Source: Candidatus Dormiibacterota bacterium
Lineage (GTDB): Bacteria > Chloroflexota > Dormibacteria > CF-121
Length of the DNA stretch: 64,000 nt
Direction: 5' to 3'
Assembly: GCA_035544955.1 (NCBI GenBank)
Contig: DASZZN010000009.1
Location: 62,001 to 126,000 of the forward strand
The notes beneath the pieces are model-generated. The model worked only from the letters and a program-made list of their open reading frames with translations. It did not search any database and was not told where the DNA came from. Positions 6,665 through 52,813 of the stretch are shown piece after piece. Made by a program: the position numbers and the translations under genes. The number at the start of each line of letters is the position of its first letter. Position 1 is the stretch's first letter.

Positions 6665-8445
6665 TCTTTCTCTCCCGCATGCTGGCGATCACGCGCGGCC
6701 ATCGCGGGTTGCTGTCGATCGCCGTCGTTGGGTCAGTCGTGTACACGGCCCTCAGCGTGCTGCCCGCGTTGATCATCCGGCAGATGCTGACGGTGCTCTC
6801 GCGCCCGTCGCCGGCCGGGACGCTCGTCTTGCTGGGCCTCGCCATGGTGGGCGCCACCGCGCTGATGGCCGTGGCCCGCTACCTCGAGGGCGGCTTCGGT
6901 CATATCGCCGCCTTCAAAGTCCTGCACGACCTGCGGATGCGAATCTATGAACAGCTGCAGCGGCTGTCGATGGGATTTCACACCCGTCAACAATCGGGCA
7001 CCATCGCCGCCAAGGTGATCGGCGACGTCGAGACCATCGAATTCTTCACCGCGCACGCCGGCATCCAATTGATCAGCGCCGCCACGGTCCCGTTCCTGCT
7101 CGGCATCCTGATGCTGCTCTTCAACTGGAAGCTGGCGCTCGTGGCGCTCGCGCCGCTGGCCGTGATCCTGCTCATCCTCGTGGTGTTTCGACGCTCCGCC
7201 TACCAGGCCTTCATGCGCTACCGTGACGAGCTCGGCCGGTTGAACGGGATCATCATCGATTACATCCAGGGCGTTGGGGTGCTGAAAGCGTTTGGGGCGC
7301 TCGGCCACGCGCGGCGCGCGATCGACGAGCGAAGTGACGAGCTCAAGAAGGCGGCGACACGAGCCAACCTGATCCACACGTGGTATTTCTCCGGCGTCGA
7401 GTGGATGGCCGCCATCCCGGTCGCGCTGGTCCTGCTGGTCGGCGGCCTGATGGCCAACGCCGGTCAGCTCGGCATCCCGGACCTGGTGCTGTTCGTCTTC
7501 CTGACGACCCAGCTCTACCGGCCGGTCACCGAGCTCAACCGGCAGCTCGAGGGCCTGCGCAACGCGGAAGCCGCCACCGATCGGATCTTCGAAATTCTGA
7601 ATGCGCCGATCGAGGTCCAGGAGTCGCCGACCGCGCGGGTTCCGAAGGATCCCCGCTACGACATCGTGCTCGATCAGGTGAGCTTCGCCTACGAAACCGG
7701 CCGGCCGGTGCTGCACGACGTCTCGATCGATTTGAAGGAAGGGTCGGTGCTCGCCCTCGTTGGGCCAAGCGGTGCCGGCAAGACGACGGTGGCGAACCTG
7801 ATTGCCCGCTTCTGGGACCCGCAGGAGGGCGCCGTCCGCATCGGCGGCATCGATCTTCGCGAGTTGCCGCTGGACTACGTCCATCGCTCGGTCAGCCTGG
7901 TCTTGCAGGATGTCTTTCTCTTCAACGACACGGTCAAAGCCAACATCAAGGTCGGGAAGCCCGATGCGAGCGACGCGCAGGTGGAGGCGGCGGCGCACGC
8001 GGCGTATGCGCACGAGTTTGTCGAGGAGCTGCCGAAGGGCTACGACACCGTCATAGGGGAACGCGGTGTCAGGTTGTCGGGTGGGCAGAAGCAGCGAATC
8101 TCGATTGCCCGAGCGCTGCTGCACGACGCGCCGATCCTGATCCTGGATGAGGCGACGTCATCCGTGGATCCGGAGGCCGAACACCTGATCCAGGCGGCGC
8201 TCGCCCGCCTCGTCGCGGAGCGGACCGTGCTTGTGATCGCCCATCGGCTGTCCACGATCCGGCAGGCCGGCGAGATCATCGTCCTCGACAAAGGCCGGGT
8301 GGTCCAGCGAGGCCGTCACGATGACCTGGTCGATGCGCCCGGCCTCTATGCGACCCTCTACCGGGCGCAGCAGGTGGCCCGTCGCTGGGACGTGGCGACC
8401 TCCCAGCGCGCCGAAGAAGATCGGCTACCGCAGGCCGTCGAGTAG
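6661..8445 (+). CDS. ABC transporter, fused permease and ATPase
   Basis: 594 residues, a half-transporter of the exporter type. An N-terminal transmembrane domain (about residues 15-300, six predicted helices) is followed by a nucleotide-binding domain with Walker A GPSGAGKTT, Q-loop region, signature LSGGQKQR, Walker B ILILDEATSSVD and the switch histidine in IAHRLST. It would work as a dimer in the cell membrane. Its start overlaps the cpfC stop (ATGA), so it is co-transcribed with heme synthesis genes. A role in moving heme, porphyrin or siderophore is possible but not shown by sequence. Its 3' end overlaps a convergent small gene by 21 nt. Confidence 0.92.
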   Translation: MIFLSRMLAITRGHRGLLSIAVVGSVVYTALSVLPALIIRQMLTVLSRPSPAGTLVLLGLAMVGATALMAVARYLEGGFGHIAAFKVLHDLRMRIYEQLQRLSMGFHTRQQSGTIAAKVIGDVETIEFFTAHAGIQLISAATVPFLLGILMLLFNWKLALVALAPLAVILLILVVFRRSAYQAFMRYRDELGRLNGIIIDYIQGVGVLKAFGALGHARRAIDERSDELKKAATRANLIHTWYFSGVEWMAAIPVALVLLVGGLMANAGQLGIPDLVLFVFLTTQLYRPVTELNRQLEGLRNAEAATDRIFEILNAPIEVQESPTARVPKDPRYDIVLDQVSFAYETGRPVLHDVSIDLKEGSVLALVGPSGAGKTTVANLIARFWDPQEGAVRIGGIDLRELPLDYVHRSVSLVLQDVFLFNDTVKANIKVGKPDASDAQVEAAAHAAYAHEFVEELPKGYDTVIGERGVRLSGGQKQRISIARALLHDAPILILDEATSSVDPEAEHLIQAALARLVAERTVLVIAHRLSTIRQAGEIIVLDKGRVVQRGRHDDLVDAPGLYATLYRAQQVARRWDVATSQRAEEDRLPQAVE

Positions 8446-8739
8446 GAGTTGCCTGAGCGCCTCGAGGCGCTCGAACTCTTCCATGCTGAGCTTCGCCGTG
8501 TTCTTCAGGTTGTGCGGATACTTGATCTTCTGCACGGCGTCGACCAGGGCTTGGACTTGCGCCTCGGTCAGCTGGTACTCGAAGTAGGCGAGTGGCTCCG
8601 GGCGAATCTCGCGATGGATCGGGAGATGATGGATCGGCGCCTGCACCGGCTCCGGATCGGTTTCGGCGAGAACCTCCCGGGCGCTCGAGGTCTCCCGGAA
8701 GAGCTCGGCTGAACCGCTCAGCGAGACCCGCTTAAACAC
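8425..8739 (-). CDS. Small protein downstream of ParA, function unknown
   Basis: 104 residues, not recognised. The GTG start at 8739 overlaps the parA stop by 8 nt, which argues for coupled expression with ParA. The N-terminal half is Ser/Glu/His-rich and probably flexible, with an IHHLPIHREI stretch. The C-terminal half (from LTEAQVQALV to the end) reads as two charged helices with KIKYPHNLKNTAKLS between them. No helix-turn-helix or nuclease motif is clear. A partner or adaptor of ParA is a reasonable guess from position only. The upstream part of the longer open frame is a shadow of parA and is excluded. Confidence 0.65.
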   Translation of the reverse strand: MFKRVSLSGSAELFRETSSAREVLAETDPEPVQAPIHHLPIHREIRPEPLAYFEYQLTEAQVQALVDAVQKIKYPHNLKNTAKLSMEEFERLEALRQLLLDGLR

Positions 8740-9541
8740 GAGAGGCAACGGGCTGCTTCGTCTCGACCGGGGCGGCCGGTGCGCGCTTGATGACCGCCTT
8801 GGCGAGGGTGCGATAGGCGTTCGCACCTTCGGAGCTGCCGGCGTACTGGAGGATCGACATGCCGGCCAGCGGCGTCTCCGCAAACCGGATGCTGTCCTTG
8901 ATGACGACGTCGAAGACGACGTCCCCATACCGCTCGCGAACGAGTTCCAGCACCTCTTGCGAGTGCAGCGTCCTCGACTTGTGAATGGTGGCCAGGATGC
9001 CGCTGATGCGAAGCTGCGGGTTGAGCTTGGCTCGCACCCGCTCGATCGTGTTATGCAGCAGCTGCATGCCCTTCATGCCGAAGTACTCGCACTGCAGTGG
9101 GATGATGACCTCGTTCGAGGCCACCAGCGCGTTGACGCAGAGCAGGCCGAGGGAGGGCGGGCAGTCGATCACCATGAAGTCGTACTCGTCCTGACCGGGT
9201 GCGAGCTTCTCCTTGAGGAACGTTTCGCGGCCCATCTCCGAGACGAGTTGGATCTCCGCGCCGGAGAGCTCGATGTTCGAGGGGATGAAGTCCACGCCGA
9301 GGTTGCTGTGCTTGACGACGTGTCCGAGGGTGACCTGAGGATCGAGGAGCAAGTGATAAAGCGTGAGCTCGATCTGATCGGGCTGCTTGAAGCCCATGTT
9401 GATCGTCAGGTGGCCTTGGGGGTCGAGGTCGATGAGGAGGACTCGCTTCCCGAGTTCAGCGAGCGCGCAACCCAGGTTCACCGCGGTGGTCGTCTTGCCA
9501 ACTCCGCCTTTCTGGTTGGCAATTGCGATGACTCTGCTCAA
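8732..9541 (-). CDS. parA: ParA-family ATPase
   Basis: 269 residues. Deviant Walker A KGGVGKTTTAVNLG near the N-terminus, LLIDLDPQGH (Walker A'), VIDCPPSLG (Walker B) and a C-terminal ParA region. Such ATPases position chromosomes, plasmids or large protein cargos on the nucleoid. The TTG at 9541 is chosen because the protein then begins LSRVIAIANQKGG as family members do; an ATG at 9643 would add 34 unlike residues. No ParB gene is present; the only linked gene is the small protein downstream. This could be a chromosomal ParA that has its partner elsewhere, or an orphan positioning ATPase. Confidence 0.88.
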   Translation of the reverse strand: MSRVIAIANQKGGVGKTTTAVNLGCALAELGKRVLLIDLDPQGHLTINMGFKQPDQIELTLYHLLLDPQVTLGHVVKHSNLGVDFIPSNIELSGAEIQLVSEMGRETFLKEKLAPGQDEYDFMVIDCPPSLGLLCVNALVASNEVIIPLQCEYFGMKGMQLLHNTIERVRAKLNPQLRISGILATIHKSRTLHSQEVLELVRERYGDVVFDVVIKDSIRFAETPLAGMSILQYAGSSEGANAYRTLAKAVIKRAPAAPVETKQPVASRV

Positions 9542-9617
9542 ACGGTGGCTAGACCTCTGTGCTGGAACGTGGCTGCGGCTATTTAACGGCAATAGGGCCA
9601 CGGCGTCAAGCTTGAGC

Positions 9618-9646
9618 TTGTGGATAAGTGTAGGCAATTTCATAAA
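9618..9646 (+). promoter_or_regulatory. Candidate promoter overlapping a DnaA-box-like site
   Basis: TTGTGG at 9618-9623 and CATAAA at 9641-9646 are spaced 17 bp, a plausible weak sigma-70-type promoter for the gene at 9659. The 9-mer TGTGGATAA at 9619-9627 is the exact complement of the classical DnaA box TTATCCACA and covers the -35 element. Only one box is present, so this is not an origin. Confidence 0.35.
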
Positions 9647-9658
9647 CTGAGCGCACCG

Positions 9659-10375
9659 ATGGTTTTCTACGCGCTGGTCGCGACCTTGATTAGCGCTGCA
9701 TTTGCCGGCACGCTGTGGACGCGCTATCGGGCCAAGCCGCGGCCGTACCTGCTCGTGTGGTCCATCGCGCTGGCGATCTACGCCATCGCGGCGTTCACCG
9801 AGGTCATCGGCGCCGCGGGGGGTTGGAGCCCGCTACTCTACCGGACCTACTACTACTTTGGCGGCATTCTGGTCGTCGGCCCGTTGGCACTCGGCACGAT
9901 TTACCTGCTCGCCCCGCGGTACAGCCGACTCGCCCTCTGGATCCTGGTCGTGCTCGCCGGGATAGGCCTGGTCGGGGTGCTGGGTGCGAACCTGCAGGCG
10001 GTCAAGCTCCAGACACACCAGGTTCCCGACGCCGATACGATCCAGGCCCAGGGCGGCCTGTTCAACGTGCTAGCAATCCTGATGGCCGCGATCCTCAGCA
10101 GCGTGGGCAGTGTCATCTTGATTGGGGGCGCGCTTTGGTCGGCGTACGGCGCCTGGCGCAAAGGCGGTGCCCAGTCGCGTCTGGTGGCGAACATCCTCAT
10201 CGCAGCCGGCGCCCTCATCGTGGGCGGCGCGTCGACGCTGACCCGGGTATTCCACATCTACGACTTGTTCTACGTCGGCCAGGCGATTGGCGTCCTGGTG
10301 ATGTTCGGCGGCTTCCTCGCCGCCCAGCGCGCGCCGAGCCGCGCCGCGCAGCTGAAGCCGGCCTCGTCTCGCTGA
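9659..10375 (+). CDS. Polytopic membrane protein, function unknown
   Basis: 238 residues with about seven hydrophobic helices, beginning MVFYALVATLISAAF. The motif TYYYFGGILVVGPLALGT and the closing AIGVLVMFGGFLAAQR are distinctive, but no family is recognised with confidence. No enzyme motif or signal peptide other than the first helix is visible. It is divergent to parA, sharing the control region with the DnaA-box-like site. The ATG at 9659 gives a start just before the first helix; an upstream ATG would add a polar leader derived from the control region. Confidence 0.75.
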   Translation: MVFYALVATLISAAFAGTLWTRYRAKPRPYLLVWSIALAIYAIAAFTEVIGAAGGWSPLLYRTYYYFGGILVVGPLALGTIYLLAPRYSRLALWILVVLAGIGLVGVLGANLQAVKLQTHQVPDADTIQAQGGLFNVLAILMAAILSSVGSVILIGGALWSAYGAWRKGGAQSRLVANILIAAGALIVGGASTLTRVFHIYDLFYVGQAIGVLVMFGGFLAAQRAPSRAAQLKPASSR

Positions 10376-41902: not shown

Positions 41903-43525
41903 ATGGCCCCCACCAAATCGGCCGCTCCGCCGCACCCCCATGTCACAGTGGACGATGTGTGGCGCGGCGCCCTACCCAAGGAGACCGAGCTCGTGGCTGG
42001 GGCCGCCGGCAGCCGCCGCGAGGTCGTCTGGTGCACGGCGCTCCGGGCCCGCTCGCCGGCGTTCACCCCGCTTCGCGGCGGAGAGTTGCTTCTCATCAAT
42101 CCGCAGGTGCTGACCGCCGTTGATCCGCGCCTCACGCTCGCCCGCCTGCTCGACTCGCTGGCGGGGCAGGGCGTGGCCGGGGCGGCGGTCCTCGGTCGCG
42201 TGTCCCCCGAGGCGCGTCGCGCAGCCGACGCCCACGGGCTGCCGCTGTTTTCGTTGCCGGCGACTATGCCGCTCGATCAGGTGGAGCAGCAGGTCCTGCG
42301 CTTCATCGTCGACCGCCGAGCCGAGCTGCACGAGCGCGCGCAGGATTTGCATCGCCAGCTGAGTGAGCTCGCGATGGCGGGACGCGGACTGCCTGCACTG
42401 CTGGCGCGGCTCCATGAGCTGACCGGCGTGCCGGTCGTGCTCGAGCGCGATTCCACCGTCGACTACGTCGGAACCGGTCGACTCTCCGAGAGTACGTCGG
42501 CCGCCATTGCCAAGGAACGCCCGGCGCTGGAGGAATGGTTGCGGGAGGTCCCGCTCAGCGCCTTCGATCCGCCGGTCGCGGTGCGGCCGCTGAACGAGGG
42601 TCAGGCGCGCCTGGTCGCACCCATCCTGGTGCAGGGCAGCATTGCGGGGTTTCTCTCATTGCTCGGCTCGGACGGCGAGCTGGGGGAGATGCATCGGCTG
42701 GCGGTGGGCCGCGCCGCGCACGCCTGTGCCATCGAGCTGGTTCGTGCTCGCGCCGCCCGTGATGCCCGTGACGAGGTCGAGGAAGAGCTGCTCGACGTGC
42801 TGACCGCGGGGCGGCCAGGTTCGCAGCAAGCGGCTGGCGAACGGGCGAAACGCAAAGGGTTTGACGTCGATGCGCCCTACCTGGTCATCGCCGCCGAGCC
42901 CGCGGAGCCCGGCCGCGCGCCAAAGATCCGCGCGGCGTGGGAACGTCACCTGGCCACCATGCGGACCAGTGCGCTGGTGCGTGAGCGGGGCGAGTCAACA
43001 CTGGCGCTGGTCAGCCTTGCGGGCCGGCGCGCACTTGACCCCAAAGCCCTGATCGAGCAGCTGCATCGCGCGGCCCGCGCCGTCGGCGGCCCGGTCGCGC
43101 TCGGCTACGGTGCGGTCCGCACCGGGACGGCCGAGATCGCCAGCGGCGCACGCGAGGCCGAGCAGGCCTTGACGATGGGCCGGCGCCTCTTTGGACCCGA
43201 CAGCGCGACCGCGTTCAAGAACCTGGGCCTCTACCGGCTGCTCTACGCGCTGCAGCCGCTGCCGGAGTTACGGCAATTTCGCGACGACGCGCTGGCGCGG
43301 CTGGGAGCAAAGGATCGCCGCGGCGTGCTGCTCCAAACGCTCGGCGCCTACCTCGCGACCAATGGCAGTCCGACCGATGCGGCGGACCGCCTGCACCTCC
43401 ATCGCAACACGGTGCTCTACCGGCTGGGCCGCATCGAGGATCTGCTCGGGGTCGACCTGCGCAACGCCGAAGTGCGGCTCGCGCTGCATCTGGCGCTCAA
43501 GATCGGCGACGTCCTCGAGGCTTAG
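41903..43525 (+). CDS. PucR-family transcriptional regulator
   Basis: 540 residues. The N-terminal PucR/PurC-regulatory domain (about 12-135, including LLINPQVLTAVDP and GLPLFSLPA) is followed by a middle GAF-like part, a degenerate GGDEF-like part, and the C-terminal HTH_30 DNA-binding domain with LATNGSPTDAADRLHLHRNT. Such regulators respond to purine or amino-acid related signals and often control transport or catabolic genes. It is transcribed toward the terpene operon and ends 26 nt before its last gene, so it is not clearly the regulator of that operon. Confidence 0.88.
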   Translation: MAPTKSAAPPHPHVTVDDVWRGALPKETELVAGAAGSRREVVWCTALRARSPAFTPLRGGELLLINPQVLTAVDPRLTLARLLDSLAGQGVAGAAVLGRVSPEARRAADAHGLPLFSLPATMPLDQVEQQVLRFIVDRRAELHERAQDLHRQLSELAMAGRGLPALLARLHELTGVPVVLERDSTVDYVGTGRLSESTSAAIAKERPALEEWLREVPLSAFDPPVAVRPLNEGQARLVAPILVQGSIAGFLSLLGSDGELGEMHRLAVGRAAHACAIELVRARAARDARDEVEEELLDVLTAGRPGSQQAAGERAKRKGFDVDAPYLVIAAEPAEPGRAPKIRAAWERHLATMRTSALVRERGESTLALVSLAGRRALDPKALIEQLHRAARAVGGPVALGYGAVRTGTAEIASGAREAEQALTMGRRLFGPDSATAFKNLGLYRLLYALQPLPELRQFRDDALARLGAKDRRGVLLQTLGAYLATNGSPTDAADRLHLHRNTVLYRLGRIEDLLGVDLRNAEVRLALHLALKIGDVLEA

Positions 43526-43551: not shown

Positions 43552-44316
43552 TTATTTCGGATGGGTGCGAATGACGTCAGGGATCTGTGGTACCGGCGGC
43601 GGCGGACCGACAACGGGAGCTGGTCCGGCACCGAGTGCGGAGAGGACGGCCGCGGCCATCGCCGCGTGCCCCTGGTCACCGGGATGGAACCAGTCGGCAC
43701 GGCCGAGATAACTCGACCCACCGTCCTGGCCGTGGAATACGTTGACCGCGTAGAAGCCATCCAGGCTGACGAACGTCCCACCGTGCCGGACGCACACCTG
43801 CTCGATGATCGCGTCGATGCTCGTGGATGGCAGCCAGCTGCCGATGCAGAGCACGCGCGTGTGCGGCGCCGTGACCGCACTCACGATCGTCTCGTACTGC
43901 GACGCGAACACGTCCGGCGGCGTGTTGAAGCCGACATCATTCGTGCCCAGCTCGATCGTCACCAAAGCCGGGTGGGCAGCGGTGACGGCGCCCAGCTGCG
44001 GGATCGCCCAGGCGGCCTTCGCGCCGCTGCGCGCCACGAGGGTAAGCGTCATCCCCAGCTTGTCGGCGACCAGCGCGGGAAACGTTCCGTCCTGCGCGGT
44101 CGCGAAACGGCCGGCGCTGATGCTGTCGCCCAGGGCGACGTAGACCTTCCCCTGGAGGCCCTCGTTGTCGGTTCCCGCATGCACGCCGATGACCTCACTC
44201 GGTGCCATCACGGGACCCCTCACGGCCGGCTGCCCGATGGCGAGAACGAATAGCAATGCCCAAACTAGATATGTCACGACCCTCGGGGTACGCGCCGGTA
44301 TAGCCGCTGACCCCAT
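43552..44316 (-). CDS. SGNH/GDSL hydrolase with an N-terminal anchor
   Basis: 254 residues from the ATG at 44316. An N-terminal hydrophobic segment (VVTYLVWALLFVLAIG) targets it to or through the membrane. The SGNH catalytic blocks are present: ALGDSISAG (Ser), a Gly in block II, ELGTNDVGF (Asn), and DWFHPGDQGH (Asp and His). It would be an extracytoplasmic esterase or deacylase. A proline-rich tail ends the protein. It is the last gene on the minus strand after the polyprenyl synthase (64 nt apart), so it may act on the terpene product or be a bystander. GGAGG lies very close to the ATG, so the start could also be the ATG at 44349. Confidence 0.82.
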   Translation of the reverse strand: MGSAAIPARTPRVVTYLVWALLFVLAIGQPAVRGPVMAPSEVIGVHAGTDNEGLQGKVYVALGDSISAGRFATAQDGTFPALVADKLGMTLTLVARSGAKAAWAIPQLGAVTAAHPALVTIELGTNDVGFNTPPDVFASQYETIVSAVTAPHTRVLCIGSWLPSTSIDAIIEQVCVRHGGTFVSLDGFYAVNVFHGQDGGSSYLGRADWFHPGDQGHAAMAAAVLSALGAGPAPVVGPPPPVPQIPDVIRTHPK

Positions 44317-44380
44317 CCTCCTCCGACCATTGTGCCAGCCGCGGCCCATGCGCTGCCCCCTAAAACGTCGCTCACGCCGC

Positions 44381-45421
44381 CTAAACCAGTCCCGACTCCA
44401 GGGTGGTGACCATCTCGGCCAGGGCACGGACGGCCCAGTTGGGACGGTCGGTCATGCCGAAAAGCTGCAATCGGGCTTCGGCGAGGTGCTCGGCCGCCTG
44501 CCGGCGGCAAATGCCCTGGGCGCTGGCCTGGGTGATGATGGCGCGCGCCGTCTCCATCTCGGCGGCGGTGAACCGGGCTCGGGTGAGCAGCGCCCGCAGC
44601 ACGCGCCGGTTGCCGGCCGCCCCGCCTTTGAGTGCGACCAGCGTCGGTAGCGTCTTCTTCCCGTTCTTCAAGTCGCTGCCGACCGCCTTGCCGGTTTGCG
44701 AGCTCGAGCCCCAGACACCGAGCATGTCGTCGATCACCTGGAATGCGACGCCAAGGTGGTAGCCGAACTTGCCGGCTTTGTCGAGCGACTCGTCGCCCAC
44801 GCCCGCCGCCAGTCCGCCCAGCCGGGCCGAGCACTCGAAAAGCGCCGCCGTCTTGAGGCCGATCATCTCCAGGTACTCGTCGACTGAGACGTCGACGCGC
44901 TGTTCGAACTGCAGGTCGATCACCTGGCCGCGACAGAGGGCGAGCATCGCCTCGGAAAGCAGCGAGAGCGCCGGTCGCGTGCGGTCGGCATAGCGTGCGG
45001 GCAGCAGGTCGACAACGGCCCGGGTGACGAGCGCCTCCAGCGCCGCGCCCGCGTTGATCGCCTGGCCCAGCCCCCAGACCTTCCAGACCGATGGCCGGCC
45101 GCGACGAAGCTCATCGCGGTCCTGGACGTCGTCGAAGACTAACGAGAAGTTGTGCACAAGTTCGACGGCGACGGCCGCCCACAGCGCGTCCGCGTAGCGT
45201 CGCCCGAACGCCTCGCAGGTGAGCAACGCGATGTTTGCCCGCAGCCGCTTGCCAGGGCGGTCGCCGGATTTGCGCAAGCCGAGGTGGTACTGCACCATCT
45301 CGGTCAGGAGCGAGCTCTGACTCGAGCCGGCCCGCTGCGAGAGGCGCGAAAGTTCGCGGTCGAGCGCCTGGTTCATCGCCTGCAGGCGATCGGTGCGGCT
45401 GGCGAAGCTCTTGGTCTTCAC
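44381..45421 (-). CDS. Short-chain polyprenyl diphosphate synthase (GGPP type)
   Basis: 346 residues. Condenses isopentenyl diphosphate with allylic diphosphates. The first Asp-rich motif is DDVQD (97-101) in LVFDDVQDRDELRRGRPS. The second is DDMLG (231-235) in FQVIDDMLGVWG, with the usual GKAVGSDLKNGKKTLPT after it. Product length cannot be read safely, but the class II and class I cyclases in the same operon suggest C20 geranylgeranyl diphosphate. It starts 4 nt after the fni stop, so the operon is tightly packed. Confidence 0.88.
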   Translation of the reverse strand: MKTKSFASRTDRLQAMNQALDRELSRLSQRAGSSQSSLLTEMVQYHLGLRKSGDRPGKRLRANIALLTCEAFGRRYADALWAAVAVELVHNFSLVFDDVQDRDELRRGRPSVWKVWGLGQAINAGAALEALVTRAVVDLLPARYADRTRPALSLLSEAMLALCRGQVIDLQFEQRVDVSVDEYLEMIGLKTAALFECSARLGGLAAGVGDESLDKAGKFGYHLGVAFQVIDDMLGVWGSSSQTGKAVGSDLKNGKKTLPTLVALKGGAAGNRRVLRALLTRARFTAAEMETARAIITQASAQGICRRQAAEHLAEARLQLFGMTDRPNWAVRALAEMVTTLESGLV

Positions 45422-45425
45422 GCCA

Positions 45426-46475
45426 TCATCGAGCTTCCGTGGGTGGGTTGGCCTTGAGGGCGGCGATGGTGGGTGCCCCGGCGCAGAACATGGCGACGCG
45501 TAGCTGCCAGGCGAAGCCGTCCAGCAGTCGCCGTACCGACTCTTCGCCCTCCGAAGCCGCAGCGAGGACGGCGTGGGCGAAACCGGTCAGGTCCGCCCCC
45601 AGTCCGATCGCCTTGGCGGCATCGAGACCGTGATGCAGTCCGCCGCTGGCGATCAGCGGCAACCGCGGTGCCGCGCGGTGCGTCGCGACCAGCGCCTCGG
45701 CCGTCGGGATGCCCCACTCGGAGAAGGCGAGGGCGAGCTCGACTTCCTCGGGTCGCTCGCGCCGAAAGGCCTCCACCCGGGCGAAGCTGGTGCCGCCCAG
45801 GCCGGCCACGTCGATGGCGGCGACGCCGGCTTTCGCCAGCAGCGTCGCGGTTTGCTCCGAGATGCCACAGCCGACTTCTTTCACGATCACCGGAACGGGC
45901 AGCTCCTGGCATAACATGGCGATCTTCTCGATCAATCCCTTGAAGTTGTGGTCGCCTTCCGGCTGCAGCGCCTCCTGCAGCGGGTTGAGATGCAGCACCA
46001 GGGCATCGGCCCCGATCATCTCGATCGCTTCCAGGCACTGTTCCTTGCGCATGCCGTAGTTCAGCTGGACGGCGCCGAGGTTGGCGAAGAGCAGGACGTC
46101 GGGGGCGACGCTACGGACCTGGTAGGTGGGGCGGAGGTCCTTGTGGGTCAGCCCGGCACGCTGGGAGCCGACGCCGAAGGCAATCCCGACGGTCTGCGCG
46201 ACCAGCGCCAGCCGGCGGTTGATGTCGCCGGCGGCCTGCGCGCCACCGGTCATGCTGGAGATCAGGAAGGGGAGCTTGAGCGGTTTGCCCAGAAAGCTCG
46301 TGGTGGTGTCGATCGCGTCCAGGTCAAGGTCCGGGAGCGCCTGGTGGGTGAAGGCGAAGCGCTCGAAGCCGGCGCCGCGCGTCGACTGGACGGAGGCCTC
46401 GAGTGATAACCGCAGATGTTCGAGCTTGCGCTGCGCGATGCGAGAGACCGGATGGCCGTTCGCGTCCAGCGCCAT
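45426..46475 (-). CDS. fni: Type II isopentenyl diphosphate isomerase
   Basis: 349 residues. FMN-dependent enzyme that interconverts isopentenyl and dimethylallyl diphosphate. R-K-x-E-H near the N-terminus (RKLEHLRL), PFLISSMTGG, VLHLNPLQEALQPEGD (conserved Asn, Gln, Glu), and GLGGTSFARVE are typical. Length fits the family. It supplies the C5 starter for the polyprenyl synthase directly downstream, and it starts 3 nt after the GGDEF/HD-GYP gene stop. Confidence 0.94.
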   Translation of the reverse strand: MALDANGHPVSRIAQRKLEHLRLSLEASVQSTRGAGFERFAFTHQALPDLDLDAIDTTTSFLGKPLKLPFLISSMTGGAQAAGDINRRLALVAQTVGIAFGVGSQRAGLTHKDLRPTYQVRSVAPDVLLFANLGAVQLNYGMRKEQCLEAIEMIGADALVLHLNPLQEALQPEGDHNFKGLIEKIAMLCQELPVPVIVKEVGCGISEQTATLLAKAGVAAIDVAGLGGTSFARVEAFRRERPEEVELALAFSEWGIPTAEALVATHRAAPRLPLIASGGLHHGLDAAKAIGLGADLTGFAHAVLAAASEGEESVRRLLDGFAWQLRVAMFCAGAPTIAALKANPPTEAR

Positions 46476-46478
46476 GGG

Positions 46479-48905
46479 CTAGCTCGCGGCCGCCGTGGCG
46501 TCTGGCGTGCCGGGGTGATCGTCGTGCACGTCGGCCTCGAGAGCGTCCGGGTTCTCCGCCTGGCGCTTGCGCATCATCTGGATGAAGTAGTCGACGATGA
46601 TCGGGTCGAACTGCGTGCCCTTGCCGGCCTCCAGTTGCGCGAGCGCGAACTCCGGCGTGCGCCGCTGGCGATAGGGCCGCGTCGACGTCATCGCGTGATA
46701 GGCGTCGCAGACGGAGACGATGCGGGCATGCAGCGGGATGTTCTGACCCGCCAACCCGTCCGGGTAACCGCTGCCGTCGTACCACTCGTGGTGATGCAAG
46801 ACGACGTTCAGGATCTGGCGGAAGGCCTTGATCGGCTGCAGGATGCGCGCGCCCAGGATTGGGTGCATGCGCATGATCAGCTTCTCGTCCTCGTCGAGCT
46901 TGCCTTCTTTGAGGAGCACCTTGTCGACGACGCCGATCTTGCCGACGTCATGCAGAATCGCCGCCAGGCGCAGCTGGTTCTTGTGTGCCCCCGAGAGCTG
47001 CAGCATGTCGCCCAGGTCTTCGGCCAGCTTGGCCACCGACTGCGAGTGGCCGCTGGTATAGGGGTCCTTGGCGTCGATCGACGCCGCGAGCGCGTTGAGC
47101 GCCTCCAGCGTCGCCTCGCTGTTGGGCGACAGCATGCCTTCGGCGAGCTCTTCCAGGTGGCTCGAGTTGGCGATCTGGCCAAGCCGTTTCTCGAGCGTCG
47201 CGACCATGCCGGGACCGACCGTGTCGGCGCTCGCCAGCTGCGCCACGACTTCGCTGAGGACCGAGTCCAGGGCGGCGACGCTTTCCAGCTCGCAGGCGCC
47301 ACAGATGCAGTTGCGGCCACGCTTCTTCGCCATGTACATGGCGAGGTCGGCTCGGTTCAGCAGCTCGTCGCGGTTGCGGGCATCCACCGGATAGGTCGCC
47401 CACCCGACCGACGCCGTCAGCGGCGCGAAGATGGTCTTGGGGTTGTACATGAAGACTTTCGAAAGCGTGTCGCAGATCTCCTGCGCCCGGATCGGCGCGG
47501 TCTGGATGTCGACGCCCGGGAGGATGGCGACGAACTCCTCGCCGCCGTAGCGGGTCACGGTGTCCTCGCGTCGCATGGTGGACGAGATCGTCCGCGCGGC
47601 GGCTTTCAACGCTACGTCACCGGCCGCGTGGCCGAAGCTGTCGTTGTAGACCTTGAAGCGGTCGAGGTCGATCATCATCACGGTGATCGAGCCACCGGTG
47701 TCTTTCGTCTTCTCCATCTCTTCGTCGAACCTGGTGTGGAAATAGCGGTGGTTCGGCAGGCCGGTGACCGAGTCGGTGACCGACAGCTTCTGCGCCTGAT
47801 CGAGGGCGTGGGCGTTGCGCATGGCAATGCCGGCACGCTCGGCGAAGGTCAGCATCAGCTCCTGCTCGGTCTGGCGAAGCGGTTGCTCGCGTCCCACGAA
47901 GCCGACGATCATGTCGGCGATCGCGCGCGCGCCGTGGAAGACCGGGATCCGGAACCACATGCCGGGCGGTAGCGGCTTGTGCTCGTTGGGCAAGAGAAGG
48001 TTGGGGTCCGACACCGCGATCACCTGCTCGCCGACCGCCGGCGTCAGGGCCAGGCGAGCCGTGGCCAGGTCGACCCCGGCGTGGTGTTCCTTCAGCTCGG
48101 GCGTCCAGTCGACGTAGAGCATCGAGGCCGGCGGCATCGACTCGTCCTGGCCGATCAAGGGGGGCATCTGCACCTGCATCAGGAAGGCGTCGGCGTTGAG
48201 CAACGAGCGGCCTTTCTCGGCGGTCAGCTGGCAGGTCTGCTCGAACTCGAGGTCCCGGTTCAGCTCGACCGTGACTTCCGACAGCGAGGCATGCGCCCGC
48301 TCCAATTCCTCCTGCAGAGCTCGCTCCGCGCGCCGGGCGCGGTCGCCGACGAAACCGACGAAGATGCCGGTCAGGGCGACAAAGCCGGTGCGCATCGCCA
48401 GGTTGGTGAGGTCGTTCAGCGTCAGCGCCGTGCCCTGGACCGTGTTGCCGTAGTAGACGACGGCGGTGTAGCTGAGCGCAATCGTCAGAACGGCCACGAT
48501 CGCGGCCAGTCCACCGAATCGAACCGCGGTTGTCACGGTCACAACGAAGTAGGCTAAGAAGAACGGCGACGCGAGGCCGCCGGTGACGGCAACGCCACCG
48601 GTCACCAGCAGCACGTCACCGATGGCCGAGATGTAGCCCGCCGTCAGCCATTCCGGCTTGCGCGGCAGCAACACGACGAGGAGAGTCAGGTTGTAGATCG
48701 CGCCCAGGCCGATCAGGGCCAGCAGGGTCACCAGCGACTGGCTGTTGAGGCTGGACGACAGGAAGGGGAGGGCGCCGAGCGAGACGAGAATCGCGAGCCA
48801 GCGGATCCAGATGATGCGCCGCTCCATCTCGATCGCCGACGCATCCGGCCTCCCGGCCTCCGACGGCTTGCGGGCGCCGAGCTTCAGGTTGATGGAGCTG
48901 CTCAT
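46479..48905 (-). CDS. Membrane GGDEF and HD-GYP protein (c-di-GMP metabolism)
   Basis: 808 residues. Order: about six membrane helices (30-195), a coiled linker, a GAF-like sensor (about 220-370), a GGDEF domain with GGEEF at 454-458 and an RxxD inhibitory site (RRED, 445-448), a short CxCxxC cluster (533-538), and a C-terminal HD-GYP domain with HD at 652-653 and HHEWYDGSGYPDG near 705-716. It should both make and break cyclic di-GMP, or switch between them. The start is the ATG at 48905, 8 nt after the terpene synthase stop; a longer frame to 49550 is a shadow of that gene. Its position between terpene genes is unusual. The cysteine cluster could bind metal or sense redox state, which is speculative. 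Confidence 0.93.
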   Translation of the reverse strand: MSSSINLKLGARKPSEAGRPDASAIEMERRIIWIRWLAILVSLGALPFLSSSLNSQSLVTLLALIGLGAIYNLTLLVVLLPRKPEWLTAGYISAIGDVLLVTGGVAVTGGLASPFFLAYFVVTVTTAVRFGGLAAIVAVLTIALSYTAVVYYGNTVQGTALTLNDLTNLAMRTGFVALTGIFVGFVGDRARRAERALQEELERAHASLSEVTVELNRDLEFEQTCQLTAEKGRSLLNADAFLMQVQMPPLIGQDESMPPASMLYVDWTPELKEHHAGVDLATARLALTPAVGEQVIAVSDPNLLLPNEHKPLPPGMWFRIPVFHGARAIADMIVGFVGREQPLRQTEQELMLTFAERAGIAMRNAHALDQAQKLSVTDSVTGLPNHRYFHTRFDEEMEKTKDTGGSITVMMIDLDRFKVYNDSFGHAAGDVALKAAARTISSTMRREDTVTRYGGEEFVAILPGVDIQTAPIRAQEICDTLSKVFMYNPKTIFAPLTASVGWATYPVDARNRDELLNRADLAMYMAKKRGRNCICGACELESVAALDSVLSEVVAQLASADTVGPGMVATLEKRLGQIANSSHLEELAEGMLSPNSEATLEALNALAASIDAKDPYTSGHSQSVAKLAEDLGDMLQLSGAHKNQLRLAAILHDVGKIGVVDKVLLKEGKLDEDEKLIMRMHPILGARILQPIKAFRQILNVVLHHHEWYDGSGYPDGLAGQNIPLHARIVSVCDAYHAMTSTRPYRQRRTPEFALAQLEAGKGTQFDPIIVDYFIQMMRKRQAENPDALEADVHDDHPGTPDATAAAS

Positions 48906-48913
48906 GGATCCGG

Positions 48914-49831
48914 TTAGCTTGCCTTCAGCACCCGTTCGGGCCGGCCCTGGCTGTGGCGGCCACCGGGAGCTTCGTAGAAGTCGAGTAGGACCTGCGTGCT
49001 GTCGATCAGGTGGCTGAGAAATTGCTGCGTGATGCCGGTCCGGCGCTCGCGCGCGATGGCCTTCTTCAGCTGCTCGAACTCTTCTTCCATCAAGTGATGG
49101 ACGGCGTCGCGGGCGCTCTCCAATGTCCGCTCGGCGGACCCGCCAAAGATCAGGTCGACCGAGTTGAAGCGGCCCTGCGCCGATTCGCGCTCGTGCGTGC
49201 GCAGGTCGTTCGCCAGCCGCACCACGCGCGCAGCCTGGCAGATGTGGCCGAAGATCCGGTTCTTCAGTTCTTGCGAGACGTCCTGGTAGGAAAACGCCAG
49301 GATCGAGACTTGCACGATGGGGAAGGAGCTGCTGTACATGCCGTTCGCCAGGTAGGCGTCGAGCGTGACGCGCTCCTTGTGCTTGAGCCAGTGGTTCTCC
49401 TGGAGCATCGTCCAGATCGATTTCTCCCAGACCAGCCGGCGCATGGCGGTCCATTCCTCGGGGACTTCGTCTTCGCGGAACTGCTCCTCGATCTTGCCCG
49501 CCACCGTGGCGTTGACAAGGGGCATCTGGCTCAGATCGCGGTTCGGCCACAGCAAGAAGTTCTGGCAGACCCGGCGGTAGTCGGCCAGGTCGAGCTCGGG
49601 ATGTTCCTCTTCCAGATAGTCGTCGATGTAGACGATGTACGCCATCGTCCGCGCCAGCGTGAGGGCTTGCTCGAAGCTCGCGCTCGGATGCAGCAGCACG
49701 GCGGCGCGGCAGACCTCGCCCAGCATGTCATCCCCTCGCGGGTTCGCGTCGACCAGATGGCGCACGACCAGGCCTTCGTCGGCCTGCCGCATCAGATTCT
49801 CTTTGAGCTTGTTAATTCGCCGGTCTAGCAT
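48914..49831 (-). CDS. Class I terpene synthase (diterpene synthase type)
   Basis: 305 residues. It has the two metal-binding motifs of class I cyclases at the usual spacing: an Asp-rich DDYLEE (70-75) in YIVYIDDYLEEE, and an NSE-type NDLRTHERE (208-216, N208, T212, E216). Such enzymes ionise a diphosphate to start cyclisation. Beside a class II cyclase, the likely substrate is the copalyl-type diphosphate it makes, as in bacterial ent-kaurene pathways. The ATG at 49831 lies 20 nt inside the end of the class II gene, so the two are translationally coupled. It could in principle be a head-to-head (phytoene-like) synthase, but the NSE motif argues against that. Confidence 0.8.
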   Translation of the reverse strand: MLDRRINKLKENLMRQADEGLVVRHLVDANPRGDDMLGEVCRAAVLLHPSASFEQALTLARTMAYIVYIDDYLEEEHPELDLADYRRVCQNFLLWPNRDLSQMPLVNATVAGKIEEQFREDEVPEEWTAMRRLVWEKSIWTMLQENHWLKHKERVTLDAYLANGMYSSSFPIVQVSILAFSYQDVSQELKNRIFGHICQAARVVRLANDLRTHERESAQGRFNSVDLIFGGSAERTLESARDAVHHLMEEEFEQLKKAIARERRTGITQQFLSHLIDSTQVLLDFYEAPGGRHSQGRPERVLKAS

Positions 49832-51266
49832 GTTCGCTCCTCGCGAGCAGGATCTGGGCCGAGAGCACGGCTGAACGGACAACCTGGGTTGGCCCGTAGA
49901 GCGTCTTGCCGACCCACATAGGAATGACGGGTTCGCCCTCCGTTTCATGTAGGTAGGCGGCAGCCCGGCGGAGTTGCTCTTTGATCTCGGACCGGAATTC
50001 GGCAGGTGCCAGCATGAGGGCCTGCACCGCGTAGGCGGTCTCTTCCGGGGTGCCCTGTTTGAACCAGCCCCAGGAGCCGTCCTCCCGCTGGGTCTTCGAA
50101 AGCCAGGCGAAGGCCGGTAGGCAGAGATCGGGTGCCGACGTGGTGAGCGCGAAGACGGCGTGGGCGGTGGCATAGAAGGGGGATCCATGCCACTTGTCGA
50201 CCCAGTGGTCGCCGTCTACGCGCGCATCACGCAGGTACTTGACGACTTTCTGTTGAATCACGTGCTGGCGGGGGAAGGGGGGAGCGACCTGGAGCACCTC
50301 GAGGATATGGGCGTTGGCCGTTACAGAAGCGTCACGCTCGAGCGGAAACGTGAAGAAGAAATTCACGCCCTCGAACGGCCGGAGTGGCCCGGCCGAGATC
50401 GGGAAGCCGTAGCGATGCAACACGCTGAGCGTCAGCGCCGTGTCATCCGAGTCGGGCCGCAGTCCATGCATTGACACCCCGACGCCGTCGTCGGTGAGCG
50501 CCTGCGCGAGGTAGCGCACGAGCGGCTGCGCTTCCGCCGGGCGCTGGTCGGCGCGGGCCAGGTTGTAGAGCACCCAGGCGATCTCGAAGACCTCGAAGGG
50601 CGCGACGGTCGGCAGGCTGCCGTCGCCCCGATTGCGCAGCAACATGGCGATGTACTCGTTCGCCTGCTCGTCGCGGGTCTTGAGCATGAAGTAGGCGGTC
50701 GCCGAGGGCGAGTTCGCGAAGGAGCCGTTGGCGGAGAGTTGCTTCCGGGCGGCCTCGATGTCCAGCCGGTTGCCCAGGTATTCGAGCGAGTGCAGTAAGG
50801 GCGTCGCCACGTTGTAGACGAGCCGGGGCGGGATGTGCCCGATCTTCGCGTCCCTCTGGGCGGAGATTCCCATGAACCGCTCGTACGGTAGTGGCAGCTC
50901 GCGAAGCTTGGCCGCGTCGAGCATCGCCGGCAGCACCAGCTCGAAGCCGGCCAGGTCGGGGCCCGTCTGCCAGTTGCCGGTATCTTCGTGGACGAAGCGA
51001 AGCGCCTTGACGCGTGCCCGGTGGGCGGCACCGTCCTGGAGGTTCTGCGGCAGGTCGACCAGCGCGACCAGCGCGCTCAGGGTCGAAACTAGCTTGTCCT
51101 TGGGAATCGGCAGCGCCGTTCCGAAGCTTCCATCCGCGTTCTGGCTGCGGAGCAGCCAGCCCAGCGTCTGGGGATAGGCCATGGCATTGGGATCGTTCGG
51201 CTCGCGCAGGCGGGCGACGAACGCCGTGTCGTAGGCCGCCGCCGAGATCTCGCCCTGCTGGAGCAA
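49812..51266 (-). CDS. Class II diterpene cyclase (copalyl diphosphate synthase type)
   Basis: 484 residues from a TTG at 51266. It protonates and cyclises an allylic diphosphate such as geranylgeranyl diphosphate while keeping the diphosphate. The catalytic DxDD reads DSDD (272-275) in GLRPDSDDTALT. SAAAYDTAFVAR near the N-terminus and WVGKTLYGPTQVVRSAV near the C-terminus are hallmarks of bacterial copalyl-diphosphate synthases. Repeats QNADGSFG and QREDGSWGW are of the terpene-cyclase QW type. The frame stays open and protein-like upstream to 51404 (ELPLPAATRQLLALLQ), but no ATG, GTG or TTG is there; ATT at 51377 or ATC at 51353 are the only AUN codons. The TTG cuts through a conserved helix, so the real start is probably upstream. 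First gene of the operon. Confidence 0.85.
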   Translation of the reverse strand: MLQQGEISAAAYDTAFVARLREPNDPNAMAYPQTLGWLLRSQNADGSFGTALPIPKDKLVSTLSALVALVDLPQNLQDGAAHRARVKALRFVHEDTGNWQTGPDLAGFELVLPAMLDAAKLRELPLPYERFMGISAQRDAKIGHIPPRLVYNVATPLLHSLEYLGNRLDIEAARKQLSANGSFANSPSATAYFMLKTRDEQANEYIAMLLRNRGDGSLPTVAPFEVFEIAWVLYNLARADQRPAEAQPLVRYLAQALTDDGVGVSMHGLRPDSDDTALTLSVLHRYGFPISAGPLRPFEGVNFFFTFPLERDASVTANAHILEVLQVAPPFPRQHVIQQKVVKYLRDARVDGDHWVDKWHGSPFYATAHAVFALTTSAPDLCLPAFAWLSKTQREDGSWGWFKQGTPEETAYAVQALMLAPAEFRSEIKEQLRRAAAYLHETEGEPVIPMWVGKTLYGPTQVVRSAVLSAQILLARSEHARPAN

Positions 51267-51505
51267 GGCCAGCAGCTGGCGGGTGGCGGCCGGTAACGGC
51301 AGTTCACCCGGCCGTGGCAGAACGTCCTTGGTTGTGGAGTGGACGTCGTTGATTTCCGTAGTCGCGACCCCCTTAATGGCGCTTGCGGTGCGCCTACCCG
51401 GAGGCTACTGCCGGCCCGTTGCGGGATACGTTGCGGTACGGCGTCACGGGGCCGTATCGCCGGTGACAGGCCCATGACCCTGGAAAGCGGTCCGCGTTCC
51501 GGGCG

Positions 51506-52813
51506 TTGTCCGAATACGGGTCTTGCGGGACGGGGCCCGAAGAGAGGGACGGGTTGTTTCGGCCGAAGGTGTTATCGGGCGGGCTGGACCGGCGCGCCAA
51601 CTGCATGGTGTTGGTTCACGGCGCCTACACGGCGGCCAACCTGCTCGCCGGGACGTTCCTCTCCATCTTTCTCTGGCGGGCGAGCCATGACCTGGCGCCG
51701 ATCGCCGTCTACAGCGGCCTGAGCGCGCTCATGATTCCCGCGGCGTTCCTCGCCAATGGCCTGCTCTGGCGGGGCTTGGGCGCCGGCGCCTTGATCCGGT
51801 TGGGCCTCTTTGGCTGTGGCCTCTCCTACCTGGTGATCCTGATGTTGGGAAACGACGCCCCGCACTGGGTCGTCGTCCTGGGCCTCCTTCGGGGCGTGGC
51901 CGAAGGTTTCTACTGGTCCGGCTTCCACCTGGTCACCTACGACACGACCTCGGACCGGGACCGGGACCGCTACTTCGGCGCCCAGGCGACGGCCAGCTTG
52001 TTCCTGACCGCGACGCTCCCGCCGGCCGCCGGCGCGATCATCGTGGCGGGTACCCACGTGGGCGGGGCCTACCGCGGCTACCAGCTGGTCTTCGCGCTGT
52101 CCACCGTGGTGCTGATGGCGGCCATGGTGCTGGCCGGGCAATTGCCCTCGTCGGCGAGGCCGCGGCTGTCGCTCCGCCGGGTCGCCACCCTGGCGCGCCG
52201 CAACCCCGACTGGCGCTGGGTGACCCGCGCGCGGCTCGCGGACGGCTTCACCGGGAGCCTGGTCGGGCTGGTACTGACGATCTTGATGTTTCTCGTGCTC
52301 AAGAACGAGCAGCAGGTCGGCAACTTCAACGGCTTGATGGGACTGCTGGGTGTCGGCATCAGCCTGGGGCTGGCGGCGTTCATGAAGCCGCGGCACCGGA
52401 TTGCCTGCGCCCTGGTCGGCGGCGCGCTGCTGGTGCTCTCGACCTTCTTGTTGCCGCTGTATCTGACCGCCTGGGCGATCGTTGGATTCGGGTTACTGCG
52501 CGCCATCGGTGGCCCGCTGCACGGCAACGCGCTCGCGCCCGTGGCGCTGCAGGTGATCGACCGCGATCCGACGCCACAGTTGATGCGCTACGACTACATC
52601 GTTCACCAGGAGCTGTGCCTGGGGATCGGGCGCGTGCTCAGCATCGGCTGTTTCCTGTTGCTGGCCGCGCCCATGAACCAGATGCTGCTGGCCCGCATCG
52701 TCGTCGCCGTCGCCGGCGCCGCCCCGATCCTGATCTGGGCCTCCTTTGCCCGTATCCCCCGGTTGCCGCCTGCCACGGATGCCGAAAACCGAGTGCTTCC
52801 GGCCGCGGCGTGA
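51506..52813 (+). CDS. MFS transporter divergent to the terpene operon
   Basis: 435 residues with about twelve helices. The loop after helix 4 is SGFHLVTYDTTSDRDRDRYFG, a recognisable pattern of a Bacillus YqgE-like MFS branch. The TTG at 51506 is used; the first helix starts near residue 35, so the true start could be a later codon such as ATG at 51605. It shares its promoter region (51405-51505) with the terpene operon and is a candidate exporter of its product. Substrate unknown. Confidence 0.8.
   Translation: MSEYGSCGTGPEERDGLFRPKVLSGGLDRRANCMVLVHGAYTAANLLAGTFLSIFLWRASHDLAPIAVYSGLSALMIPAAFLANGLLWRGLGAGALIRLGLFGCGLSYLVILMLGNDAPHWVVVLGLLRGVAEGFYWSGFHLVTYDTTSDRDRDRYFGAQATASLFLTATLPPAAGAIIVAGTHVGGAYRGYQLVFALSTVVLMAAMVLAGQLPSSARPRLSLRRVATLARRNPDWRWVTRARLADGFTGSLVGLVLTILMFLVLKNEQQVGNFNGLMGLLGVGISLGLAAFMKPRHRIACALVGGALLVLSTFLLPLYLTAWAIVGFGLLRAIGGPLHGNALAPVALQVIDRDPTPQLMRYDYIVHQELCLGIGRVLSIGCFLLLAAPMNQMLLARIVVAVAGAAPILIWASFARIPRLPPATDAENRVLPAAA

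Follow-up and report, generated by a model that had tools for sequence, protein, structure and literature searches.

Diterpene genes of bacteria are usually read as parts of antibiotic or hormone-mimic clusters. In the gibberellin operon of rhizobia the CPS and KS genes, which lead to ent-kaurene, overlap one another (PMC11469919). The chloroflexotal bacterium Herpetosiphon aurantiacus carries an O-methylkolavelool cluster (Nakano 2015, as cited in PMC9440906; described in PMC4902038), and its product, an O-methylated diterpene alcohol, was detected by gas chromatography-mass spectrometry (PMC4902038). In a different setting, the CqsA-CqsS system of Vibrio and the LqsA-LqsS system of Legionella place a synthase gene close to a membrane-sensor gene, and the signal is a hydrophobic molecule made by the cell itself (PMC5289986). 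Here we describe a diterpene operon in a 64,000-nucleotide stretch (the window) of the genome of a Candidatus Dormiibacterota soil bacterium (Chloroflexota; assembly GCA_035544955.1, contig DASZZN010000009.1, positions 62,001 to 126,000). The window carries on its minus strand a class II cyclase gene, followed by genes for a class I synthase, an 808-residue membrane sensor, a type II isopentenyl diphosphate isomerase (IDI), a polyprenyl diphosphate synthase and a GDSL/SGNH hydrolase.

As with the rhizobial CPS and KS genes, the class II gene of the window precedes and overlaps the class I gene, and the same two-step chemistry would be expected. Unlike the rhizobial operon, that of the window has no cytochrome P450 genes, and it includes a type II IDI and a membrane sensor. 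The Herpetosiphon cluster likewise pairs its class II cyclase with a second diterpene synthase, but this enzyme is Rv3378c-like and is accompanied by a methyltransferase, and the output is a kinase where the window has cyclic di-GMP (c-di-GMP). "Rv3378c-like" is a family label that we presume to be right; no database model confirmed it. From gene content (class II, Rv3378c-like and methyltransferase-like genes) we take family f23 of our survey to represent Herpetosiphon, and at the f23 loci with this content a seven-transmembrane histidine kinase-receiver hybrid adjoins. The nearest working analogues are CqsA-CqsS and LqsA-LqsS since the sensor gene of the window is likewise adjacent to synthase genes. 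We claim no sequence relation, as those systems use an unrelated synthase, an alpha-hydroxyketone and a phosphorelay, whereas the output in the window would be c-di-GMP. On balance we favour the reading that the operon makes a cyclised diterpenoid and that the membrane sensor most likely perceives it, with c-di-GMP as the output.

The original prediction for this locus was a self-sufficient diterpene operon without P450s. We found the class II/class I pair, the dedicated IDI and a synthase of the geranylgeranyl diphosphate (GGPP) type, and no P450 genes in the operon; what had been overlooked was the gene for a membrane GGDEF-HD-GYP protein. The genes had been placed on one strand with gaps of 3-8 nt or overlaps, and these distances are right: class II and class I overlap by 20 nt, class I and sensor are 8 nt apart, sensor and IDI 3 nt, and IDI and polyprenyl synthase 4 nt. 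However, the 8 and 3 nt gaps flank the omitted 808-residue gene, and thus the IDI gene does not directly follow the class I gene. Once this gene is counted, the operon is one of biosynthesis plus signalling rather than biosynthesis alone. The cyclases and the sensor are probably on one transcript. A consensus scan found no sigma-70 promoter.

We found that the sensor matches the Pfam families PF00990 (GGDEF; 147 bits, E 4.8e-43) and PF13487 (HD_5; 132 bits, E 3e-38). In its AlphaFold2 model (mean predicted local distance difference test score 79) six helices span the membrane and an extended signalling helix leads into a GAF-like domain, and Foldseek matched this domain to the GAF domains of DosS and DosT. 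In the window protein and its close orthologues the motifs are intact, with an RRED I-site five residues ahead of GGEEF, HDVGK, and HHEWYDGSGYP. Judged by these motifs both catalytic sites look intact, and the protein is predicted to be a bifunctional diguanylate cyclase and HD-GYP phosphodiesterase. The membrane input scored 13.8 bits against the Pfam model 6TM_PilS, below the cut-off of 27.

The enzymes that had been named in the original prediction were all recovered. The predicted DxDD class II cyclase contains RPDSDDTA, with DSDD at residues 272-275, and the invariant columns are present. In a comparison with the Protein Data Bank (PDB) it aligned over its full length with Tpn2 (6vpt, E 7e-64), its closest solved relative, and more weakly with the bacterial CPS 5bp8 (E 1e-41). 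Matches to squalene-hopene cyclases were partial and weak (18-33 bits) beside these full-length matches, and we rejected that assignment. For the terpentetriene pair Tpn2/Tpn3 and Cyc1/Cyc2 of Kitasatospora, we know of no sensor. The class I protein has the DDxxE and NDxxTxxxE motifs (IDDYLEEE and NDLRTHERE), both retained in orthologues, and matches PF19086 (Terpene_syn_C_2; 60 bits, E 2.6e-16) and PF03936 (E 5.8e-14). Kinship with phytoene or squalene synthases, which would have spoken against a diterpene pathway, was rejected because a Pfam scan gave no match to either family; the protein is a true terpene synthase.

The remaining two enzymes would provide the precursor. The type II IDI scored 406 bits against TIGR02151, well above the curated equivalog cut-off of 281. 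In the polyprenyl synthase the DDxxD motif is DDVQD, with no insertion and with Phe at -5, which we take to be the pattern of archaeal GGPP synthases. The nearest NCBIfam models were mostly of GGPP type and matched below their cut-offs; the PDB entries matched were 3nf2, a putative polyprenyl synthetase, and 1wy0, which is a GGPP synthetase. The proximity of this GGPP-type synthase points indirectly to GGPP as the class II substrate, though FPP may be the one used. The gene for GcpE, of the methylerythritol phosphate pathway, lies elsewhere in the same genome.

Class II relatives were drawn from two sources, 400 phylum genomes and 80 named loci of the GTDB collection; we called open reading frames (ORFs) and scanned them with in-house profiles. 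A class II locus was counted as well-flanked if 2.5 kb or more was available on each side of it, which left 62 distinct loci. At 45 of these 62 a multi-transmembrane histidine kinase or GGDEF protein was encoded no more than three genes away on the same strand. The corresponding count was 0/180 among genes six or more genes off at the same loci (Fisher p 4e-35) and 0/204 among genes of random regions (two-gene window); these 0/384 control genes make a small sample though the contrast is large, and the survey used a Chloroflexota query, simple ORF calls, profiles made partly from the same loci and many metagenome-assembled genomes (MAGs). With five proteins of six transmembrane helices and a STAS domain (6TM-STAS) and one transmembrane (TM)-GAF-GAF protein added, 51 of the 62 loci have a multi-pass membrane signalling protein. 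Eight of the other eleven are from actinomycetes, Streptomyces or Sorangium, one (L119) has a kinase on the opposite strand, and two (L052, L102) have no adjoining sensor. Of 67 sensor genes, 40 lie directly downstream of class II; in 30 of these the two genes overlap or are no more than 30 nt apart, and overlaps or 3-4 nt gaps recur. We found no earlier report of an association between diterpene genes and sensors in the open-access papers that we searched.

The association recurs in Chloroflexota, Bacillota and Rubrobacteraceae, and its partners vary. Thermobaculum has class II, class I and TM-GGDEF-HD-GYP genes, while in Bacillota (Ferroacidibacillus organovorans and one MAG) the order is class II, TM-GGDEF-HD-GYP and GGPP synthase. 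In F. organovorans SLC66 (L091, 7770-14295) these three are followed consecutively by a transporter that is MFS-like by sequence. Rubrobacteraceae have class II and then TM-GGDEF-EAL. At loci of the Caldilineaceae type the order is class I, class II, receiver and TM-histidine kinase, and in most Anaerolineae it is Rv3378c-like synthase, class II, TM-histidine kinase and often a receiver. These Anaerolineae operons (L046-L060, L097-L149) often come after genes for a four-helix membrane protein of about 195 residues and a protein of about 350 residues. In families f15 and f53 class II adjoins the 6TM-STAS protein (L051, L062, L063, L065, L069), and its STAS domain suggests a partner-switch output. 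Thus the sensor link is present with both kinds of second enzyme, canonical class I and Rv3378c-like. Class II homologues also occur in archaeal MAGs (L092, L126 and, in Thermoplasmata, L138 at 6770-10157, where an MFS gene and then an Rv3378c-like gene come after class II); they may have been placed there by faulty binning or may be genuine diterpene loci of archaea.

The membrane input modules form three sequence groups, A, B and C, of which C is small. Group A comprises the window family, Thermobaculum, Bacillota and several Chloroflexota kinases, with histidine kinase and GGDEF-HD-GYP outputs. Group B comprises Anaerolineae kinases, Herpetosiphon-like hybrid kinases and the Rubrobacteraceae GGDEF-EAL proteins, with histidine kinase, histidine kinase-receiver and GGDEF-EAL outputs. 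Outputs are therefore exchanged within A and within B. When outputs are mapped onto the class II tree, at least five changes are required for the c-di-GMP label and at least ten for the histidine kinase label. Module B was found in 20 of the 400 phylum genomes, and 11 of its 14 best matches adjoin class II; a twelfth (G367) lies next to an Rv3378c-like gene, its genome having no class II match, and the other two are orphans. Module B is thus nearly confined to diterpene loci. At L179 (G011:C462, 914-4485) an Rv3378c-like gene precedes a module B membrane protein, and between them lies a gene for a 521-residue protein that resembles B12-binding radical SAM enzymes and may carry out a tailoring step. 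For module A, 5 of the 11 best matches outside the window family adjoin class II, and most weaker relatives lie away from diterpene genes. Module A is weakly like 6TM_PilS (6 of 18 members, best E 6.6e-5) and RegB-type domains and module B weakly like MASE6; a Foldseek search of the PDB with module B gave no match with E < 0.001. Models of A and B show the same succession of six helices although their profiles do not join, and common ancestry, given 4.8% probability by profile comparison, is unsupported.

The gene order of the window recurs, as far as contigs reach, in soil MAGs of the same family ('Chloroflexi bacterium CF_nn'), with the MFS gene divergent from class II, class I, sensor, IDI, GGPP synthase and SGNH genes and a PucR gene beyond them. 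That regulator gene (PucR/CdaR-type, window positions 41903-43525, plus strand) is convergent with the operon end. Between the window and one relative the ratio of nonsynonymous to synonymous substitution rates (dN/dS) was 0.06 for class I, 0.08 for the sensor, 0.08 for GGPP synthase, 0.12 for class II and 0.17, the highest, for the SGNH hydrolase. Given this recurring order and purifying selection (dN/dS 0.06-0.17), the arrangement is not due to chance, and the sensor belongs to the operon as a constant member.

Our data provide good support for a functional link between diterpene synthesis and the membrane sensor. Inputs fall into three groups, outputs into at least four types and second enzymes into two kinds, and what stays the same throughout is class II chemistry beside a multi-pass membrane input; from this we infer that the diterpenoid is the ligand of the sensor. 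Four observations weigh against this. Module A is weakly like PilS/RegB-type domains and has counterparts in sensors that are not near diterpene genes, so its ligand could be something else; no such sensor was found at the actinomycete, Streptomyces and myxobacterial Sorangium class II loci; two Bacillota loci, L091 among them, have no class I gene nearby; and a search of the genome for a PilZ receptor found none. The same genome has 17 GGDEF domains and one MshEN domain.

The main alternative is that the sensor reads quinone redox, oxygen through its GAF domain, or membrane state and governs the timing or amount of the diterpenoid, the genes being together through co-regulation. The weak likeness of module A to 6TM_PilS and to RegB-family kinases (ActS/PrrB/RegB model, E 2e-5) and the DosS/DosT-like GAF fold are consistent with this. 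A GGxxSPF segment of module A is also reminiscent of what we take to be the RegB quinone motif, a likeness not confirmed in the papers searched. However, the output domains in the window are enzymes of c-di-GMP turnover and lack any DNA-binding part, many loci pair the kinase with a lone receiver, and the occurrence of three input groups and no fewer than four output types around a single enzyme is more easily explained by the product as common factor. We consider co-regulation unlikely, though it deserves to be kept in mind. The diterpenoid could also serve as a bulk lipid of the membrane, in the manner of a short hopanoid, with the sensor monitoring membrane composition or fluidity. A multi-transmembrane sensor without a large outer domain fits a lipophilic product, and a dedicated IDI and GGPP-type synthase suggest flux, but the second enzyme differs by locus (canonical class I, Rv3378c-like or none) and the O-methylated diterpene alcohol of Herpetosiphon (PMC4902038) is no evident structural lipid, which makes this explanation improbable. 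Sensor genes are common in bacteria and actinomycete diterpene clusters go without one, but an ordinary specialised-metabolite cluster with a passenger sensor is very hard to reconcile with 45/62 against 0/384, the repeated tight spacing, the recurrence in Chloroflexota, Bacillota and Rubrobacteraceae, and the strong purifying selection on the sensor.

If the diterpenoid is the ligand, the pathway may run as follows, with the enzymatic steps assigned from family membership. IDI and the polyprenyl synthase would supply GGPP, which the class II enzyme would protonate and cyclise, giving a bicyclic diphosphate that would then be ionised by the class I enzyme to yield a diterpene olefin or alcohol. 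The hydrophobic product would enter the membrane, with the MFS protein as a possible exporter, and would bind or alter the six-helix input of the GGDEF-HD-GYP protein so that c-di-GMP rises or falls. At related loci histidine kinase, GGDEF-EAL or STAS sensors would play the same role.

Table 1. Coordinates of the operon and adjoining features in the window.
Feature	Coordinates	Strand	Details and basis
GDSL/SGNH hydrolase, hydrophobic N-terminus	43552..44349 (start ATG 44349 or GTG 44427)	-	PF13472, E 2.3e-21
Short-chain polyprenyl diphosphate synthase, GGPP synthase-like, 346 aa	44381..45421	-	PF00348, 220 bits, E 5e-65
Type II isopentenyl diphosphate isomerase, 349 aa	45426..46475	-	TIGR02151
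Membrane sensor, 808 aa: six TM helices, signalling helix, GAF fold, GGDEF, HD-GYP	46479..48905	-	Pfam, AlphaFold2, Foldseek
Class I terpene synthase, 305 aa	48914..49831	-	PF19086, DDxxE, NDxxTxxxE
Class II diterpene cyclase (DSDD)	49812..51359	-	515 aa from conserved ACG 51359; 484 aa from TTG 51266
Class II leader: CGGCAGTAGCCTC block, short GGCGC..GCGCC inverted repeat, AAGGGGG, invariant ACGGA	51357..51430 (element start approximate)	-	18- and 15-sequence alignments
Divergent MFS transporter	51506..52813	+	PF07690, E 1.1e-10

The divergent MFS gene and the terminal SGNH hydrolase gene were also as originally described. The MFS gene keeps its position and orientation in the loci of the window family, and an MFS gene is present in the Thermoplasmata diterpene locus and, by sequence alone, in Ferroacidibacillus. 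Export by this protein is therefore plausible. The SGNH hydrolase is confined to the window's own family among the loci seen and is the least constrained gene of the set.

The start of the class II gene is unusual. Across 18 aligned sequences the frame has no common ATG, GTG or TTG, and several orthologues have none of these codons upstream of the catalytic domain. A GGGGG run followed a few nucleotides on by ACGGA is invariant or nearly so in the 18 sequences; in the window this ACG follows the Shine-Dalgarno-like AAGGGGG, and the leader pattern was seen in the window and in orthologues L033-L040 and L073-L087. The TTG at 51266 is an unlikely start since the orthologues do not have it. Initiation at the ACG would be the simplest reading of these alignments and, if true, the first cyclase would be poorly translated. 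The class II frame is broken in three relatives, which may reflect assembly errors.

More broadly, and more tentatively, we suggest that Chloroflexota and some Bacillota and Actinomycetota may use cyclic diterpenoids of their own making as signals, perceived through dedicated multi-pass receptors with two-component, c-di-GMP or STAS partner-switch pathways behind them, the window being the c-di-GMP version; we rate this somewhat short of an even chance. Systems in which this can be tested exist, namely F. organovorans SLC66, where the genes for cyclase, sensor and GGPP synthase are consecutive, and Herpetosiphon, with its known product. If true, diterpenoids would be internal or cell-to-cell signals of many environmental bacteria in three phyla, with interchangeable outputs. 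This would give c-di-GMP signalling an input of known chemistry, provide a bacterial counterpart of the plant diterpenoid hormones, and assign a role to many uncharacterised class II cyclases of the Anaerolineae.

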